A stretch of 64,000 bases of DNA, from positions 1 through 64,000 of the forward strand of contig NZ_QLTS01000005.1 in NCBI RefSeq assembly GCF_003269275.1. The letters are read 5' to 3'. The translations under genes and the position numbers were made by a program. Origin of the DNA: Phascolarctobacterium faecium DSM 14760. Its GTDB lineage: Bacteria > Bacillota > Negativicutes > Acidaminococcales > Acidaminococcaceae. Below the pieces are notes generated by a model, which saw nothing but the letters and a program-made list of their open reading frames with translations, did no database searches and was not told where the DNA came from. Positions 34,018 through 45,209 of this stretch are shown here, piece by piece; positions within the stretch are counted from its first letter, which is position 1, and every line of letters starts with the position of its first letter.

Positions 34018-34166
34018 AAATTTCAGGAACTAGCTGCTGATCCGTCACCCGCGGATATGGCAAAAATCAAAGGCTGCGATCTGACTTACGCAATATGCGC
34101 TTACAGTGGCGTGACCGTGCCGGATTTACACCGGACTTCCCTAATTTAACCTTGAGGCACCTTTGA
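34018..34166 (-). promoter_or_regulatory. Cobalamin riboswitch upstream of the ABC importer
   Basis: The minus strand reads AAAGGTGCC, then TAGGGAAGTCCGGTG, AAATCCGG and GGTCACGCCACTGTAA, the hallmark order of the cobalamin aptamer with the B12 box GCCACTG. The strong terminator after it implies transcription stops when adenosyl- or another cobalamin binds. It links the importer to B12 or cobalt supply. Confidence 0.94.
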
Positions 34167-34187
34167 TAAAATTATTAAGTTGTATTA

Positions 34188-36744: not shown

Positions 36745-36876
36745 TCTTTGCACTGCATATCGCTACAGTACAAACTGAACAGGCGGTAAACCTTTGGTTT
36801 TAGCGGCCGGGCCCATCGGGCAGCAGATTCGTAAACAAACATCTGCGGGACAGTAGTAGTTCCGCAGATGTTTTTA
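36745..36876 (+). promoter_or_regulatory. NiCo (czcD) riboswitch with terminator
   Basis: The conserved blocks of the NiCo/czcD motif appear in order: AACAGGCGGTAAACC, GCGGCCGGGCC, CGGGCAGCAG and GCGGGACAG. A 10-bp stem (36839-36848 with 36862-36871) followed by TTTTT forms the terminator, and the GGGACAG block is inside it. Binding of Co2+ or Ni2+ should prevent termination and switch on the exporter directly downstream. The identification is from memory of the motif, and gene context agrees. Confidence 0.85.
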
Positions 36877-36922: not shown

Positions 36923-37825
36923 ATGCAAGACAAAATTGCCCAGTCCGAACGTCTGGCCATGCAAGTTTCTATTAACAGTATCATCGTAAATCTAATTCTT
37001 TCAGTTGGTAAATTAGCAGCAGGGATACTGGCTAATTCTGCCGCAATGATTTCTGATGCCATTCATTCCGCTTCCGACGTCTTCAGTACCTTTATAGTTA
37101 TGGCCGGCGTCAAGATATCCAATAAAGCTTCTGATGCAGAACATCAGTACGGACACGAACGTTTGGAATGTGTCGCCGCCATCATTTTAGCGATAGTTTT
37201 AGCACTGACAGGTATTGGTATAGGTTACGCAGGTTTAGAAAAAATATTTCACGCTTCAGCCGAAGATTTGAAAATACCGGGCAGCCTTGCTTTGATCGCC
37301 GCAGTAATTTCCATTATCGTTAAAGAAGGTATGTTCTGGTACACTAAAAAAGCAGCTGCCAAAATAAATTCCAGTGCTTTAATGGCAGATGCCTGGCATC
37401 ACCGCAGTGATGCATTGTCCTCAATAGGCAGCTTTATCGGTATTCTAGGCGCCCGTATGGGCTATCCTGCTTTAGATCCTCTTGCCAGTGTAGTCATTTG
37501 CCTGATGATCGTTTACGCATCATACGAAATTTTTAAAGATGCCATAGACAAGATGGTCGACCGCTCCTGTGACGAAGCCACTATCAATACGATGACAGCT
37601 CTGATAAACGCTCAAAAAGGCGTTGACCACATAGACGTACTGCAAACCAGAAAATTTGGCTGCCGCATCTATGTAGATGTCGAAGTAAGCGCTGACGACG
37701 ACCTGACTTTACTGGAAGCACATACTATCGCCGAAAATATTCATAAAGCAATTGAAAGTAATTTTTCGGAGGTAAAACATTGCATGGTCCATGTAAACCC
37801 ATGCAGCGAAGTACACCATGACTAA
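36923..37825 (+). CDS. Cation diffusion facilitator, likely Co2+/Ni2+ exporter
   Basis: A 300-residue inner-membrane metal/proton antiporter with six membrane segments and a C-terminal cytoplasmic ferredoxin-like domain. The metal-site residues are D45, H48 and D52 in SDAIHSASD and the paired DAWHHRSDA in the fifth segment. GGGAGG lies nine bases before the ATG. The NiCo riboswitch upstream makes Co2+/Ni2+ the probable substrates rather than Zn2+. A plus-strand terminator lies at 37958-37991, so the 3' UTR overlaps the opposing RNA from 38316. Confidence 0.92.
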   Translation: MQDKIAQSERLAMQVSINSIIVNLILSVGKLAAGILANSAAMISDAIHSASDVFSTFIVMAGVKISNKASDAEHQYGHERLECVAAIILAIVLALTGIGIGYAGLEKIFHASAEDLKIPGSLALIAAVISIIVKEGMFWYTKKAAAKINSSALMADAWHHRSDALSSIGSFIGILGARMGYPALDPLASVVICLMIVYASYEIFKDAIDKMVDRSCDEATINTMTALINAQKGVDHIDVLQTRKFGCRIYVDVEVSADDDLTLLEAHTIAENIHKAIESNFSEVKHCMVHVNPCSEVHHD

Positions 37826-37827
37826 AT

Positions 37828-37857
37828 AAAAAAACCACCACTGTTCAAGTGATGGTT
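37828..37857 (-). terminator. Terminator 2 of the orphan riboswitch RNA
   Basis: 10-bp stem (AACCATCACT with AGTGGTGGTT on the minus strand, one wobble pair) followed by seven T residues, ending three bases from the exporter stop codon on the opposite strand. Confidence 0.88.
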
Positions 37858-37885
37858 TTGGCAGGCGCACCCCTACGCCTGCCAA
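37858..37885 (-). other. UAGGGGUG-loop hairpin, copy A
   Basis: A perfect 10-bp stem (TTGGCAGGCG with CGCCTGCCAA) closes the 8-nt loop TAGGGGTG, directly followed by terminator 2. The same loop on a different stem occurs at 44681-44705, also followed by a terminator. Upstream is the pyrimidine-rich CTCTCCTCCTTCG, complementary to a Shine-Dalgarno sequence. Confidence 0.7.
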
Positions 37886-37957
37886 CGAAGGAGGAGAGAA
37901 AGGATTTTCTATTCTTTTAAGAAAGCCTTGAAAACAGCAAATAAATCAGAATATATC

Positions 37958-37991
37958 TGCCGGACAGAGTGAAAATGTGTCCGGCATTTTT
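37958..37991 (+). terminator. Terminator of the exporter gene
   Basis: TGCCGGACA (37958-37966) pairs with TGTCCGGCA (37978-37986), followed on the plus strand by TTTTT. It places the exporter mRNA 3' end about 165 bases after the stop codon. Confidence 0.85.
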
Positions 37992-38040
37992 ACTCTGTAG
38001 AACAATCAATATTTCGACCAGCAAGAATAAAACGACAATC

Positions 38041-38078
38041 ATAAGAAAAGACCGTCTTCTCAAGGCGCGAAGACGGTC
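38041..38078 (-). terminator. Terminator 1 of the orphan cobalamin riboswitch
   Basis: GACCGTCTTC (rc of 38069-38078) pairs with GAAGACGGTC (rc of 38050-38059); TTTTCTTAT follows. It is the expected ligand-controlled terminator. Its 5' arm begins GACCGT, as in the corresponding terminator of the mutAB leader. Confidence 0.85.
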
Positions 38079-38141
38079 AAATGTTATCAGTCAAAGCGGT
38101 TCTGCCACTCTCACATAAACAGAACCTCATTGGTTAAAAAC

Positions 38142-38302
38142 ATCTCCTTCCTGTCTCTCGCAGGTCAAGCAGTGATGCTTATATAGGCTGCTGTCCGGCT
38201 TCAGGTATTACCTTGGCTTGTGCAAGGACTGACCTGTTACGGTGACGGGATCGCATCGGATTTACACCGATCGACATTTAAGTTCATAGAACACCCATAT
38301 GA
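38142..38302 (-). promoter_or_regulatory. Cobalamin riboswitch without a downstream gene
   Basis: The minus strand reads GGGTGTTCTATGAAC, GATCGGTG, AAATCCGATGCGATCCCG, then the variant B12 box GTCACCGTAA (usually GCCACTGTAA), ending with the L13-type hairpin CCTGCGAGAGACAGG (38150-38164), which is nearly identical in the mutAB leader. The changed box residues leave a small doubt about function. Confidence 0.85.
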
Positions 38303-38322
38303 AATATTGATTTGTTATATTA

Positions 38323-38351
38323 ATTATAAGCATTACTAATTATCTTGTCAA
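38323..38351 (-). promoter_or_regulatory. Consensus promoter of the orphan riboswitch RNA
   Basis: Perfect TTGACA (rc of 38346-38351) and TATAAT (rc of 38323-38328) with a 17-nt spacer. Confidence 0.93.
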
Positions 38352-38587: not shown

Positions 38588-38881
38588 TCATTCTTTTGAC
38601 AGCAGAGAATCTAAAAGCAAAAGGATATTGTTGCCAATAGCAGCGTGGAATCTAATGTTATCTTTATCGTCAATGCTCCACGCAACATGCATGGCGCTAG
38701 TTTTATTCGAATATAAGCGTTTAAATTCGTCAAGCATCTGTTTTGGTAATTTGACATACAGCATCATATTATATTGTTTAAATTTTTCATCAACCAGGAC
38801 GTAGTGAGAGTCGAGAACTTCCAATCCATAACGTTTTTCGATTAATTCTATCAGGCCTTTAATAGCCGGGTTATCATTCAT
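38588..38881 (-). CDS. Hypothetical protein, last gene of the mutAB operon
   Basis: I do not recognise this 97-residue protein. It has no signal peptide or membrane segment and no cysteine. It is mixed alpha/beta by eye: an N-terminal helix (AIKGLIELIEKRYGLEV), a charged middle with KFKQYNMMLYVKLPK, and a C-terminal hydrophobic IGNNILLLLDSLLSKE. The start at 38881 is fixed by AAGGAG nine bases upstream. It lies 66 bases after the second meaB with a terminator-like hairpin in the gap. Its position suggests a link to mutase function or repair, but nothing in the sequence shows it. Confidence 0.75.
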   Translation of the reverse strand: MNDNPAIKGLIELIEKRYGLEVLDSHYVLVDEKFKQYNMMLYVKLPKQMLDEFKRLYSNKTSAMHVAWSIDDKDNIRFHAAIGNNILLLLDSLLSKE

Positions 38882-38894
38882 ATGTATTGCCTCC

Positions 38895-38947: not shown

Positions 38948-40129
38948 TTATTTTATTTCAAAAGGCGAGCTGTCTTTAACATTAACACCGCTCAGCTCAG
39001 CAGCAGCAAATCTGTTGATAAGATCTTGAACCGCCATAGTAGCCGAAATTTTTCCAACCACTACTTCACGCTCGATCTCTTCTTTGCAGCCAATAATGGC
39101 TGGCGAACGATAAAACAGATTATGCAGATGTTCTTCAACCATGGTATATACCCAGGAAAGCGTCTGCTGTTTCCTGCGTTCAGCTAACACGCCATTTCCC
39201 CAGCCTTGTTTCATAAAGGCTTCGATAACATCATTCCACAGTTCCATAATTCCCGCTCCTGTATAAGCAGAGCAGGTATAGGCATGAGTCGTCCAGTTTT
39301 CGGTAGCCTGACGTAAAAATTGCAGGATACGTTCATACTCAGCTCTGGTAACCATTGCCCGCTGTTTATTATCACCATCGGCTTTATTGACGACGATTGC
39401 ATCGGCGAGTTCCATTACGCCTTTTTTCATCCCCTGCAATTCGTCGCCGGCGCCTGTCAATACGACCAGCAGAAAAAAATCTACCATCGAACGTACGGTA
39501 GTTTCACTCTGCCCTACGCCTACGGTCTCGACTAAAATGGTGTCATAGCCGGCAGCTTCGCACAAAAGCAGTGTTTCACGGCTTTTACGAGTCAGACCAC
39601 CCAAAGTTCCTCCCGAAGGAGACGGACGGATAAAAGCATTCGGTTCGCGTGAAAGCTGTTCCATACGTGTTTTATCGCCCAGGATACTGCCTTTGGTAAC
39701 AGTACTGGAGGGATCGACCGCCAGTACTGCGACTTTATGTCCGCCACGACACAGGTTTGTGCCAAGAGCCTCAATAAAGGTGGATTTACCTGCACCAGGC
39801 ACACCGGTGATCCCAACGCGTGTCGATTTACCAGTGTAAGGCAGCAGTTTTTGGATAACCTGCTGTGCCGTCTCAAAATGAGCGGCAGCATTACTTTCAA
39901 CCAAAGTGATGGCGCGTGATAAAATTGCGCGGTCACATTTTAGGACACCTTCGACGTAATCGTCGACTTCCAGCTTACGGCGTTTGATAGCCGGAGCTAC
40001 TTTGTCTTTTTTATCTACTGTCACACCTGGAGTTCCTTCATGACCGCCTGTAACACCGTACATTACCCGGCAGGCAAATTTATCGTTTTCTTCTTCAGGC
40101 ACCCACGAAGGTTTATAAGTATCTGTCAT
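38948..40129 (-). CDS. MeaB/ArgK-type GTPase of the second mutase system
   Basis: A methylmalonyl-CoA mutase chaperone of 393 residues, about 80 longer than the first MeaB because of an N-terminal extension (residues 1-60, TDTYKPSWVPEEEN...). Walker A is GVPGAGKST (109-117), the signature ETVGVGQSETT and the base motif VNKAD are both present. It starts three bases after mutB stops, so it should be co-translated with its client. The MeaB at 667-1605 is clearly a paralogue in the other mutase operon. Confidence 0.93.
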   Translation of the reverse strand: MTDTYKPSWVPEEENDKFACRVMYGVTGGHEGTPGVTVDKKDKVAPAIKRRKLEVDDYVEGVLKCDRAILSRAITLVESNAAAHFETAQQVIQKLLPYTGKSTRVGITGVPGAGKSTFIEALGTNLCRGGHKVAVLAVDPSSTVTKGSILGDKTRMEQLSREPNAFIRPSPSGGTLGGLTRKSRETLLLCEAAGYDTILVETVGVGQSETTVRSMVDFFLLVVLTGAGDELQGMKKGVMELADAIVVNKADGDNKQRAMVTRAEYERILQFLRQATENWTTHAYTCSAYTGAGIMELWNDVIEAFMKQGWGNGVLAERRKQQTLSWVYTMVEEHLHNLFYRSPAIIGCKEEIEREVVVGKISATMAVQDLINRFAAAELSGVNVKDSSPFEIK

Positions 40130-40132
40130 GGC

Positions 40133-42319
40133 TTAATCCGCCAAGCGTCTGTTCAGCTCTTCCAGTACTTTTTTAGCGCAGACAGGTATAATGGTGCCGG
40201 GTCCAAAAATAGCTGCTGCACCGTGTTCGTAGAGATAATCATAGTCCTGGGCAGGAATTACGCCGCCGATAACGACCATGATATCCTCACGTCCGCGTTT
40301 TTTAAGTTCTTCTACCAGTTGCGGCATCAAGGTTTTATGACCTGCTGCCAATGAGCTCATACCAACGATATGAACATCATTATCTACTGCATCCTGCGCA
40401 GCTTCTTCCGGAGTTTGGAACAGAGGGCCGATATCTACGTCGTAGCCCATATCTGCGAAGGCGGTAGCAATAACTTTCGCCCCGCGATCGTGTCCGTCTT
40501 GTCCCATTTTAGCAATATAGATACGGGGACGACGGCCTTCGCACTGTTCAAAGTCATCTGTCATCTGACGAACTTCCTTGATAACATCTTCGTCAGCAAA
40601 TTCGCTGCTGTAGACGCCGGAAATTGAACGGATGATAGCTTTATGACGGCCGCAGACTTTTTCGACAGCGTCAGAAATCTCGCCTTTGGAAGCACGAGCA
40701 CGAGCTGCGTTAACTGCCAGCTCCAGCAAGTTGCCTTCACCGGTTTCCATGGAATGGGTGATAGCGTCCAAACAACGGCGAACTTCATCGTTGTCACGGT
40801 TAGCACGCAATTTTTTCAGACGTTCGATCTGCGCCAAACGAACTGCAGTGTTGTCGACTTCCAGAATATCAAGCGGATCTTCTTTTTCCAGACGGTAATC
40901 GTTTACGCCGACAATTTTTTCGGCGCCGGAATCGATATGAGCCTGACGACGTGCTGCCGCTTCTTCGATACGCATTTTAGGAAGACCGGTATCAATAGCT
41001 TTGGACATACCGCCGAGCTGTTCGATTTCCTGGATATGTGCCCAGGCTTTTTGGATCAGCTGATTGGTCAGTGCCTCTACATAATAGGAACCGCCCCACG
41101 GATCAATAACTTTGCAGACTTTGGTTTCGTCCTGAATGTACAATTGAGTATTACGAGCAATACGAGCCGAGAAATCTGTCGGCAACGCGATAGCTTCGTC
41201 CAAAGCGTTAGTATGCAGCGACTGGGTATGCCCCAAAGCTGCTGCCATAGCCTCGATACAGGTACGCGTAATATTGTTGAACGGATCTTGCTCTGTCAGG
41301 CTCCAGCCGGAAGTTTGCGAATGTGTACGCAAAGCCATAGATTTGGTTTTTTTCGGGCCGAAGGAATTAACGATTTTCGCCCACAGCATACGTCCTGCAC
41401 GCATTTTAGCAATTTCCATAAAGTAGTTTTTACCCATTGCCCAAAAGAATGACAAACGCGGTGCAAACTGGTCAATAGTAAGACCATGCTCAGTACCTGT
41501 ACGCAGATATTCGAGACCGTCGGCTAATGTATAGCCAAGTTCGATATCAGCAGTAGCGCCTGCTTCCTGCATATGATAACCGGAAATCGAGATACTGTTG
41601 AATTTGGGCATATAAGCGGAGGTATATTCGAAAATATCACCGATGATGCGCATGGAAGCTGTAGGCGGATAGATATAGGTATTACGAACCATGAATTCTT
41701 TCAGAATGTCGTTTTGGATCGTACCTGCCATAACTGATTTGTCTACGCCCTGTTCTTCACCAGCCAGGATATAGAAGGCCAATACAGGCAGCACTGCGCC
41801 GTTCATTGTCATTGATACAGACATTTGATCCAGAGGAATGCCGGAGAAAAGAATCTCCATATCCAAAATAGAGTCAACGGCAACACCGGCTTTACCTACG
41901 TCACCGACAACGCGCGGATGATCAGAGTCATAACCGCGGTGAGTTGCAAGGTCAAATGCGATAGACAGACCTTTTTGCCCTGCCGCCAGGTTACGGCGAT
42001 AGAAAGCATTTGATTCTTCTGCAGTAGAGAAGCCTGCATATTGACGTACTGTCCAGGGTTTGGTTACATACATCGTTGAATAAGGTCCACGCAAAAATGG
42101 CGGGATACCTGCCATATAATGCAGATGTTCGCAGTCTTTATAGGCATTCACATCATATAAAGGAGCTACGTTGATTTGTTCCATTGTACGGTAAAAATTT
42201 TCTTCAAAGGATTTACCGGTTTCAGTTTTTAATTTTTCCTTCCAGGCAGCAAACTCGGTGTCGCCTTGTGCGGGTGCCTGCTGAAAGGGAATTTGACTAA
42301 AATCAGGAATTCTGGACAT
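40133..42319 (-). CDS. mutB: Methylmalonyl-CoA mutase large (catalytic) subunit, heterodimeric type
   Basis: The full-length catalytic subunit, 728 residues: TIM barrel followed by the B12 domain. The cobalt-binding DGHDRG is at 608-613, with H610 as predicted ligand, and the substrate residues are Y84 (TMYVTKPW) and R212 ([11 protein letters not shown]), as in true methylmalonyl-CoA mutases. The resemblance to the Propionibacterium enzyme is high throughout as far as I can recall it. It starts two bases after mutA. The window thus encodes two independent methylmalonyl-CoA mutases of different architecture. Confidence 0.95.
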
Positions 42320-42321
42320 TA

Positions 42322-44511
42322 TCAGAACATCCCCCTTTCTTTTTGCATACGGAGCAAGGTTTCATAGCAGTTGGATTTGACGCTGATGTAATCATCCATA
42401 CCTGCAGCATCACAGATTTCTTTCAGTTCTGCACTGGGAGCACCTGCCAGGAATACCTTCATTTCCGGATTTACAGCTTTGATGCCTTTCGTAACTGCTG
42501 GGGCCAGTTCCGGATAAGTAGCGTCAGTCGAGCAGACGATGGCTGCATCGGCACCGGACTCAAGCGCTGCTTTAACAGCTTCTTCGACAGTGAGGAAGCC
42601 ATTATTTGTCACAACCTCAAAGGCAGCCACCTGCATGAAAGAGGTAACAAAATCGGCACGTGCTTTATGCTGCGGGATCGGTCCCATATTGGCCAGGAAA
42701 ATTTTAACGTTTGCACCGGTTTTATCAACAAAATTTTCCGTACGCATACGCAGTTCTTCATAGCGTTCAGTCCAGCGATGCGGAGCAATAGCTTCAACCT
42801 TTTCGCCATTAGCGCTGCCGGTAAGAGCTGCTGAAATTTCACCCATAGTTGCTCCAGCCAATAATGCTTTTTCAGCATCAGCGATCAAAGAACCCAACTC
42901 ACTGGCATCACGTTTGCCAAGGTCGCTGAGTACAGCTTCTACATAAGCATTGTCGCGTACTTTTACGTTGACTTCCAAATCAGTTTTGCGTGCTTTAAGG
43001 ATTCCTGCGAAATCAACTTCAGGCACTTCCAAAAGTTCTTCAGTCATGTTCGGGTACATGTTATTGCCGACTGCACGATCTTTTCTGGTAGCAAGATTTT
43101 TAAAACGTTCTTCTAAAATAGCTTTAACCGCTGCCTGTACTTTGCCGCTTTCAAGCGCTGCCAGTAAGCCGCCGTGGCTTTCGATTTCCTGGAACTTAGC
43201 CCAGGTTTTTTCCGTAAATTCTTCTGTCAGCGGTTCAATATACCAGCTGCCGCCGGAAGGATCGATCGGCTGAATAAAGTTGAATTCATGCTGTTCCATG
43301 ATCTGGATATTACGGGCAATACGGCGGGAAAATACATCACTGGGACGAATGCAATGATCGAAAGGTTTGACATACATGCCGTCCATACCGCCAACAACCG
43401 CAGAGAAGGATTGTGTTGCCGCACGCAGCAGATTTACATAAGGATCGTATTTCGTCTGGCAGAAGGTAGAAGTGCTGACATAAAGATTGATCTTTTGTGC
43501 TTCTTCATCCCCACCGCAATTTTTAACGATTTGCGCCCAAACCATTTTCAGACTGCGCAGTTTAGCAATTTCCATAAAGAAATTAGCTCCGATACTGAAA
43601 TGAAAACGCAGGTGGCGACAGAAGGTGTTGACATCAATACCACGGCGTTCCATAGCGCGCATATAAGTTACAGCTGCATTCATAGCATAAGCTACTTCCT
43701 GAATGTCGTTAGCACCGCCATTATGATAAACATCGGTATTGACAACTACTGTTTTAAGCTGCGGAGCATTTTTTTCAGCCCAGGCAATGCTATGTGCCAT
43801 TTCGTCATAATATTCGTCCAGCGGACGAACTAATTCGCCGTCCAAAGCAAGTTCGCCAATCGGATCGACAGTAATAGCGCCATGTAATTTTTCGAGAGCC
43901 AGACCTTTTTCCCCGCAGACAGTGATTACAGCAGCCAAAAGAGCGATGTTGGAAGCGCCGGCATAAATATCGATTTCGAATTTTTCCAGATCAACATCAT
44001 CCAGCAGTTTTTCCACATCAGCTACAGTAGCCAAAGATACGCCTATATCAGCAACATCTTTTACTTCTGCCTTATCAGGATCATAGCCTTTGCGTGTCGC
44101 AGTATCTAAAACGACACTGGCAGCGGTAGTTCCTTTCAACAGCTCGTATTTAACCATTTCATTGGCTTCGGCAGGAGTTTTTCCATCACACTCCTGAGCA
44201 ATAGTCCATACTTTATGGATATAACCTCCTGCATTAGCACCGCGCAGGTTGCTTTCCATGCCGGGATAGGTTTTATTGTGAGTAATCTTCTCCTGATCCT
44301 CTAATCTATAAATAGGATTCAGGGTGATATCCTCATAAGTTTTAGTGAACATACTCTTTTCAAAAGAACCGCCTTTAAGAGCAGTCACTACTTCTTGCTT
44401 CCACTCCTCATAGGACGGCGGCGTAAATTCATCGAAAGTAACCGGAGGGATAGTTCCCACTAAAGTTTCTTCCTGCTGAATCTCTGCTGTAAGGTTTTTA
44501 TCTTGTTCCAT
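42322..44511 (-). CDS. mutA: Methylmalonyl-CoA mutase small (non-catalytic) subunit
   Basis: The structural partner of MutB, 729 residues. It has the same two-domain layout but the B12 signature is lost: the DGHDRG position reads IPQHKARAD, so it should not bind cobalamin. Conserved segments include [14 protein letters not shown] and [21 protein letters not shown] put the start at 44511, eight bases after AAAGGA; the ATG three codons earlier overlaps this ribosome site. It is the first gene of mutA-mutB-meaB2 and lies 130 bases after a terminator of the riboswitch leader. Confidence 0.94.
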
Positions 44512-44642
44512 ATACGGCATCCTTTCATTAATTATTTTCTGTGCCGGGGTAGTAAATGTTCACCTCCTGTACTTTGCTTACTTATGTATCGCAGAATGGT
44601 TCGAGAATCTCCTACCGAAACTGCCTCTATAAGCCCCTTATC
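44512..44642 (-). other. Gap between leader terminator 2 and mutA
   Basis: No convincing promoter is visible here; TTGATA and GATACAT elements are weak and badly spaced. A strong AGGAGGTGAAC lies at about 44563-44573 and precedes a nine- to eleven-codon frame with no ATG (ATT or GTG start, ...YYPGTENN), which may be a leader peptide or chance. mutA transcription therefore seems to depend on passing both leader terminators. Confidence 0.4.
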
Positions 44643-44678
44643 AAAAAAAGCAACCATCACAAAAAATGTGATGGTTGC
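44643..44678 (-). terminator. Terminator 2 of the mutAB leader
   Basis: Perfect 11-bp stem (GCAACCATCAC with GTGATGGTTGC, 7-nt loop) followed on the minus strand by TTTTTTT. It shares the AACCATCAC arm with terminator 2 of the orphan RNA. Confidence 0.93.
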
Positions 44679-44680
44679 TC

Positions 44681-44705
44681 TTGCCGCGCACCCCTACGCA
44701 GGCAA
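44681..44705 (-). other. UAGGGGUG-loop hairpin, copy B
   Basis: On the minus strand TTGCCTGCG and CGCGGCAA pair (8 bp with one bulged T) around the loop TAGGGGTG, directly followed by terminator 2. Compared with copy A the stem bases differ but pairing is kept, while the loop is identical. Confidence 0.7.
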
Positions 44706-44795
44706 TTGAGAAGAAGGTTCTTGCACAAAGAGAATTTGAGAATGGCAATAAACCCGGCAGGTTGTCCAGACCTGTCACAAATAAATATATACACT

Positions 44796-44828
44796 GATGG
44801 CTGACCTTATTTTCGAGGTCTAGCCATC
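44796..44828 (-). other. Long hairpin in the mutAB leader
   Basis: GATGGCT-GACC and GGTC-AGCCATC arms form an 11-bp stem with one bulge and a 10-nt loop. No T-run follows. It lies between the two terminators and may be part of a second RNA element. Confidence 0.5.
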
Positions 44829-44859
44829 ACACTTCGACCTCAACGCGCTTACAAAAGCA

Positions 44860-44907
44860 CAGAAAAACAGAAAACCGTTTTCTTAAAATAATATTAAGAA
44901 AAACGGT
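44860..44907 (-). terminator. Terminator 1 of the mutAB cobalamin riboswitch
   Basis: ACCGTTTTTCTTAA pairs with TTAAGAAAACGGT (44874-44907), then TTTCTGTTTTTC on the minus strand. A separate 9-bp hairpin (44935-44957) lies between it and the aptamer, as in the orphan locus. Confidence 0.82.
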
Positions 44908-44974
44908 CAGAAATTCATAGCAAAAGATTCGCACTTCGTATTTACCTAAAATACGAACTCTGCAGCATCTCCTC

Positions 44975-45162
44975 CCCGTCTCTCGCAGGTCAATCAGCGA
45001 TGTAGCTAAGGCAGTTCTTCTGACTCCGATTCATAGCTCACTTCACCTTCCCAGTATTACTACCAGTGGCATTTGAAGTTTACTCCTCGTTACAGCGGCG
45101 GGACCGCGTCGGAATTGCACCGACTTCTCTATTAAGCTCCGTAGAGCACCTTTAGCTTACAA
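44975..45162 (-). promoter_or_regulatory. Cobalamin riboswitch upstream of mutAB
   Basis: The minus strand reads AAAGGTGCTC, GAAGTCGGTGCAATTCCGAC, GCGGTCCCGCCGCTGTAAC (B12 box region) and ends in the L13-type hairpin CCTGCGAGAGACGGG (44975-44989). The order and spacing are those of the cobalamin aptamer. The downstream genes need adenosylcobalamin, the opposite of the usual biosynthesis/transport targets. Confidence 0.93.
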
Positions 45163-45180
45163 TATTCATTTGTTAGCTTA

Positions 45181-45209
45181 ATTATATTTATTACTATTTC
45201 TTTTGTCAA
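45181..45209 (-). promoter_or_regulatory. Consensus promoter of the mutAB riboswitch leader
   Basis: Perfect TTGACA (rc of 45204-45209) and TATAAT (rc of 45181-45186) with a 17-nt spacer. Confidence 0.93.

Follow-up and report, generated by a model that had tools for sequence, protein, structure and literature searches.

The window, which is the whole stretch of 64,000 nucleotides analysed here, encodes on its minus strand a predicted RNA of about 490 nt that we label S1; all position numbers are window coordinates. From 5' to 3', the locus comprises a promoter, a cobalamin aptamer, the hairpin CCUGCGAGAGACAGG, a second hairpin (HP2), a first terminator (T1), a tail, and a second terminator (T2). 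A cation exporter gene is convergent with it.

38323..38351, minus: S1 promoter, TTGACA-17-TATAAT, 12/12 consensus, kept in homologues
38300..38312, minus: 5' strand of the long-range helix P1 (AATCAATATTTCA), partner 38016-38004
38169..38313, minus: cobalamin aptamer, AdoCbl-like, short type (RF00174, 38.6 bits, above the gathering score)
38150..38164, minus: post-aptamer hairpin CCUGCGAGAGACAGG, candidate P13/antiterminator element, near-invariant in A1
38098..38126, minus: HP2 hairpin with conserved loop UUUAUGUGAGAGUGG; loop invariant, stem covarying, retained in aptamer-less copies
38050..38078, minus: terminator T1, hairpin and U-rich tail
38004..38022, minus: post-T1 strand, with the lock GCUGG (38022-38018, pairs with CCUGC) and P1' CGAAAUAUUGAUU (38016-38004)
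37972..37990, minus: hairpin with CCGGACA loop, common to the mutA leader
37890..37903, minus: C/U-rich tract CCUUUCUCUCCUCC, anti-Shine-Dalgarno-like; among homologues, the 3' segment is rich in CUCC relative to shuffles
37858..37885, minus: hairpin with AGGGGU hexaloop, recurring in the mutA leader
37831..37859, minus: terminator T2 hairpin
36923..37825, plus: CDF cation exporter, czcD-like (PF01545 and PF16916), convergent with S1
36765-36855, plus: NiCo riboswitch before the exporter (RF02683)

The promoter is the sole 12/12 match within 3.5 kb. In an Rfam covariance-model search of the window, the aptamer exceeded the RF00174 gathering score of 31.5, and it resembles the short AdoCbl type (RF01482), the threshold of which is reached by several S1 homologues; others score below it. 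The post-aptamer hairpin occupies the same position as in the 14 other cobalamin riboswitches of the genome, where it is likewise followed by a terminator. S1 thus shares with RF00174 and RF01482 riboswitches the aptamer core and the succession of hairpin and terminator, but differs from them in having no downstream gene, a degenerate 3' half of the usual B12 box (the ACCUGCC half), and a conserved HP2 and tail. Dozens of genomes show these elements (promoter, aptamer, T1, tail, and T2) in the same order, placing the layout beyond chance. The promoter, aptamer, two terminators, and missing gene described in the original prediction were all confirmed.

The next minus-strand gene downstream of S1 starts about 2.3 kb away, past czcD. 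S1 itself contains no credible ORF, and the sense-strand ORFs of 15 homologues have no common start, frame, or stop. The original prediction had named an ordinary downstream protein gene in close relatives as an observation that would speak against a regulatory RNA. We looked for one and found neither a conserved ORF nor a gene consistently 3' of S1 in the relatives. On the other side of the locus, an ORF of 98 aa (38588-38884, minus) without a Pfam match lies between meaB and S1.

Long-range pairing in S1

The first nucleotides of S1 (AAUCAAUAUUUC) are complementary to the strand just past T1 (GAAAUAUUGAUU), forming helix P1 (38300-38312 with 38016-38004). When partners were swapped among 15 divergent representatives, native pairs were more stable than swapped ones (-14.2 versus -11.8 kcal/mol, permutation p = 0.0002, a value that overstates independence since the representatives are related by descent). 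In these representatives 89-96% of the P1 cells are paired, against 32-51% when the strands are slid, and the inner cells reach 96% against 35-51%. Adjoining P1, the lock pairs GCAGG with the CCUGC of the post-aptamer hairpin in 99% of cells, and one aptamer-less copy carries the compensatory double change CCUGU:ACAGG. Lock, HP2, and T1 taken together are paired in 95% of cells, with 15 of 22 pairs changed on both sides; neither the observed pairing nor the covariation score was reached in any of 500 shuffles. Within the T1 stem, 10 of 11 columns show changes on both sides. Since P1' and the lock strand lie 3' of T1, these pairings can form in read-through RNA only, and they would hold the ligand-free fold of S1.

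Termination at T1 is probably caused by B12, because the other cobalamin riboswitches of the genome show the same layout of post-aptamer hairpin and terminator. An antiterminator pairing (CAGGAA:UUCCUG) is plausible in several lineages (L025, L030, L060), but its covariation was unsupported by partner swapping (p = 0.31). A kissing interaction between HP2 and the tail was tested and rejected (p = 0.52).

Conservation and aptamer-less copies

R1, a covariance model of the region from the hairpin to the post-T1 strand, was run on 59 genomes of the Acidaminococcaceae and on other families of the class. Matches of at least 74 bits were obtained in 38 of the 59 genomes and 9 of 18 genera, with one strong copy per positive genome and an additional, weaker second copy in G052; in the other sampled families of the class, scores did not exceed 43 bits. 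In relatives searched at the DNA level, conservation extended to the promoter, the 5' end, the aptamer edge, and T1. Scanning 84,980 species genomes for the combined B12-hairpin and HP2-loop pattern yielded 30 contigs, all compatible with Acidaminococcaceae by their titles (Phascolarctobacterium, Succiniclasticum, Acidaminococcaceae, or the broader 'uncultured Selenomonadales'), whereas the viral contigs scanned with this pattern gave no matches. The nine genomes of genus g12 have no S1, and the two of these that were checked have no cobalamin riboswitch either. Relatives G003 and G020 have 21 and 14 cobalamin riboswitch matches, yet no strong S1. No account of the RNA was found in the literature searched. 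By these comparisons, S1 is a conserved free-standing non-coding RNA gene, specific to Acidaminococcaceae among the genomes sampled. Such family-wide conservation without a gene lends support to the original proposal of a gene-less, B12-controlled regulatory RNA laid out like Rli55 and EutX.

Three genomes of genus g16 (G015, G053, and G052) carry copies, designated S1*, that have no aptamer core and no T1 stem, and the promoter region of which differs from that of S1. An Rfam search found no cobalamin match in them even at E 5. The 5' end, the HP2 loop, the lock region, and P1' are all retained, as are a GGACA-type hairpin, GCUGUUCUGA, the CUCC tract, the AGGGGU hairpin, and T2. In G015 (by Pfam) and G053 (by sequence match), cbiZ, encoding adenosylcobinamide amidohydrolase, lies downstream of S1*; in G052 a gene for a solute-binding protein does. 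Both S1 and S1* are present in G052, and G015 has no cobalamin riboswitch anywhere in its genome. Contamination amounts to up to 5% in some of these genomes; S1* is nevertheless repeated in three. Because the body is kept without the aptamer, the function of the RNA does not depend on it, and B12 sensing is an exchangeable input, open to loss or replacement. These sensor-less copies represent a natural experiment in which evolution separates input from output, making a trans function directly testable.

The promoter region of S1* (L108, L109, L110) contains a dyad-like GTATATAC/ACTTTACAGTAT sequence, and at the same loci the promoter of the gene after S1* has a related TTGAC(A/C)GTAAAG string; it is possible, from these strings, that one transcription factor is common to both promoters. 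A CarH-like B12 regulator was considered for S1* and rejected, as the only B12-binding_2 proteins found were MetH-sized, one per genome.

The neighbours of S1 differ by genus. A convergent czcD adjoins it in g1, g13, and g18 and lies 1.3-1.5 kb off in g8 and g10; a RidA-like gene is found in g2, meaB lies upstream in g17, and others occur elsewhere. The linkage of S1 and czcD is probably ancestral, judging from this distribution, and a regulatory relation between them is possible in some genera. The original prediction went further and proposed that S1 may act as an antisense RNA to the mRNA of the cobalt/nickel exporter. The overlap itself is real here, as the exporter mRNA has an inverted repeat at 37959-37985 followed by a T-run and overlaps S1 by about 160 nt, and czcD is often the adjoining gene, as a search for the same arrangement in relatives confirmed. 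S1 persists without it, however, being equally well kept with czcD at 5 kb (G001), at 100 kb (G016), or on a separate contig (G018). In the g13 and g18 loci read, where czcD is adjacent, S1 ends before the czcD stop codon. Conservation thus tracks the structure and tail of S1 rather than an overlap that is itself not conserved, and an antisense role is very unlikely. Even less credible is the other explanation offered originally, that S1 is the remnant leader of a lost gene: the absence of a 3' gene and the modest aptamer score agree with it, but the gene-less state has been kept in 9 genera with covarying structure, and copies without any aptamer are still retained.

The mutA leader and the tail of S1

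A second RNA with the tail module of S1, overlooked in the original prediction, lies in the same window. It is the leader of the mutA operon, 6.6 kb upstream of S1 on the same strand.

44649..45209, minus: mutA leader RNA, layout as in S1
45209-45181, minus: mutA leader promoter
45168-44993, minus: cobalamin aptamer
44907-44874, minus: T1-like hairpin
44774-44758, minus: CUGGACA hairpin
44701-44684, minus: AGGGGU hairpin
44679-44649, minus: T2-like hairpin
42322..44520, minus: mutA, methylmalonyl-CoA mutase subunit
40133-42319, minus: mutB, after mutA
38948-40129, minus: meaB, after mutB (assigned via Pfam on the homologous G016 gene)

The leader also has a pyrimidine tract between its CUGGACA and AGGGGU hairpins. 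In 97% of the genome, AGGGGU hairpins of at least 5 bp were confined to S1, the mutA leader, and one weak antisense site, and non-coding CYGGACA hairpins to S1, the mutA leader, and one other 5' UTR. The two together, in this order, are present in G000 only in S1 and the mutA leader. Most of the relatives' mutA leaders read contain CYGGACA hairpins. AGGGGU is present in both RNAs of g1 and some g17 and absent from both in Succiniclasticum types, and genus g7, which has no S1, has degenerate versions. The CYGGACA hairpin is absent from the S1 of genus g2. An S1-tail covariance model built from other genera ranked the S1 of the window first and found mutA leaders weakly, with 14.9 bits and E about 4 genome-wide in G000 and a better E of 0.004 in 115 kb in L099, E-values from such home-made models being rough. 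S1 also occurs in genomes without mutA (G001, G009, G005, G007, and G015); mutA would therefore be at most one of its targets. The presence of MCM was rejected as a predictor of S1, which also occurs without it.

In the mutA leader region (44520-45209, minus), two successive terminators lie behind the cobalamin riboswitch, and in G016-type relatives T2 and mutA are separated by a short gene. For an operon encoding a B12-dependent enzyme, an OFF switch is counter-intuitive. In L097 and L098, one more hairpin of this kind, with a GGACA loop, lies between the short ORF and mutA; a single leader can thus contain the CYGGACA hairpin more than once. Another AdoCbl riboswitch of the window (34027-34179, minus) is located upstream of a binding-protein-dependent ABC permease pair (33955-32140), the substrate of which is perhaps a corrinoid, cobalt, or nickel.

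Across the tail segments of 17 homologues, CUCC was counted 24 times, compared with 8.9 in shuffles (largest 17), mostly at positions predicted to be unpaired. The tract is the most broadly kept tail element across lineages, including g2 and the Succiniclasticum types without AGGGGU. In appearance, the unstructured C/U tract is typical of sRNAs targeting Shine-Dalgarno sequences. FsrA and RsaE are C-rich Firmicutes sRNAs of this kind. S1 resembles them in its unpaired CUCC-rich tract and intrinsic terminator, and differs in its much greater length, its riboswitch front end, and its still putative targets. A genome-wide duplex scan based on rough gene calls gave no outstanding target: duplexes of S1 with the start regions of G000 formed a continuum, the best at -32.4 kcal/mol for a PhoH-like gene and the next at -28.9, with no group of B12-related leaders among the best.

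The HP2 loop was rejected as a trans seed, CACTCTCACA not being enriched. A site in the mutA leader (UGCCAUUCUCA) can form 11 bp with the loop, one of them U-G, but falls outside the best duplexes genome-wide and is a mere lead. The similarity of the cbiL coding sequence to HP2 (22/24) is in sense orientation and below BLAST significance, and was taken as chance. Succiniclasticum-type mutA leaders (L104, L106, L107) contain CACTCTCACACGA, the complement of the HP2 loop, and L106 and L107 have CACTCTCA also in the 5' UTR of a divergent gene; neither was seen in G000.

A possible role for S1 and its relation to known RNAs

The reading we favour, with a probability of roughly 0.45, is that S1 is a B12-switched trans-acting RNA, long at low B12, which draws a factor away from the mutA leader and/or base-pairs through CUCC with ribosome-binding sites. 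With B12 bound, transcription would stop at T1 and yield an RNA of about 270 nt; without B12, read-through to T2 would produce the form of about 490 nt. The 5' end of this longer RNA would pair with the post-T1 strand and GCAGG with CCUGC, a fold closed to the T1-terminated RNA, and the tail would expose the unpaired CUCC-rich tract together with the CYGGACA and AGGGGU loop hairpins. The tail may then act in trans, likeliest as a decoy for a factor acting on the same hairpins in the methylmalonyl-CoA mutase operon leader; pairing of CUCC with ribosome-binding sites would be a second mode or an alternative one. When B12 is scarce, the cell could in this way rely less on a B12 enzyme, or make less use of other mRNAs. 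More tentatively, and on balance doubtfully, S1 may be a family-specific B12-switched decoy for a putative RNA-binding antiterminator that recognizes the CYGGACA and AGGGGU hairpins in the mutA leader and is possibly the conserved ANTAR regulator; one genus would have had its aptamer input swapped for promoter control at the DNA level.

Two other explanations keep the long RNA but give its tail a different meaning. The stronger of them, though we think it rather unlikely, regards S1 as an ordinary trans-acting sRNA whose CUCC tract pairs with ribosome-binding sites on a single mRNA or on several, the likeness of the two leaders reflecting common ancestry only. The breadth, enrichment, and mostly unpaired state of the tract favour this, as do the genomes that have S1 and no mutA, but the duplex predictions form a continuum without a B12-related leader group, and the retained AGGGGU and CYGGACA loops are left unexplained. 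An improbable explanation is that S1 and the mutA leader are tandem riboswitches, in which the tail binds a second ligand as a further aptamer and S1 competes as a sink or acts only via its transcription. Both RNAs have a structured tail before T2, and base pairing between the CUCCU tract and the GGGG loop is conceivable; however, no gene follows S1, and the hairpin content of the tail varies strongly among genera, unlike a ligand pocket.

If the decoy reading is true, methylmalonyl-CoA mutase, the core energy enzyme of succinate fermenters, would be tied to cofactor supply, and the mutA link would explain how a B12-dependent energy enzyme is matched to that supply. To our knowledge, only a few riboswitches that control non-coding RNAs have been described, and S1 would be a family-wide case in succinate/propionate fermenters of the gut and rumen.

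In Enterococcus and Listeria, an AdoCbl riboswitch decides whether the non-coding RNA EutX or Rli55 carries the binding site of an antiterminator protein, which it thereby sequesters (PMC5821096). S1 has the same architecture of aptamer, T1, tail, and T2 without an ORF. It would resemble these RNAs further in being short with B12 and long without it (PMC5821096), and in a long form that carries a module also present in an mRNA leader, for which the binding factor is putative. It differs in that the partner leader is mutA rather than eut, in its long-range 5'-3' lock, and in the existence of aptamer-less copies. In Listeria, AspocR is a 1.4-kb antisense RNA to pocR that a B12 riboswitch ends early and that, in its longer form without B12, acts in trans (PMC8079631). 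S1 similarly has a B12 riboswitch ahead of an early stop in a non-coding RNA and a longer form that may act in trans without B12, but its length is about 490 nt, and conservation does not extend to the antisense overlap with the exporter.

An ANTAR double hairpin with A1/G4 hexaloops was not found in the S1 tail, where at most one such hairpin (AGGGGU) precedes T2 and several lineages have none; S1 is therefore not classed as EutX. A genome scan for ANTAR double hairpins gave two weak candidates, neither in S1 nor in the mutA leader. An ANTAR protein (PF03861) is encoded in all eight Acidaminococcaceae genomes checked. In G000, an ANTAR-domain response regulator lies at 30768-31394 of contig C9, preceded by a large ORF, probably a sensor kinase, and followed by groESL.
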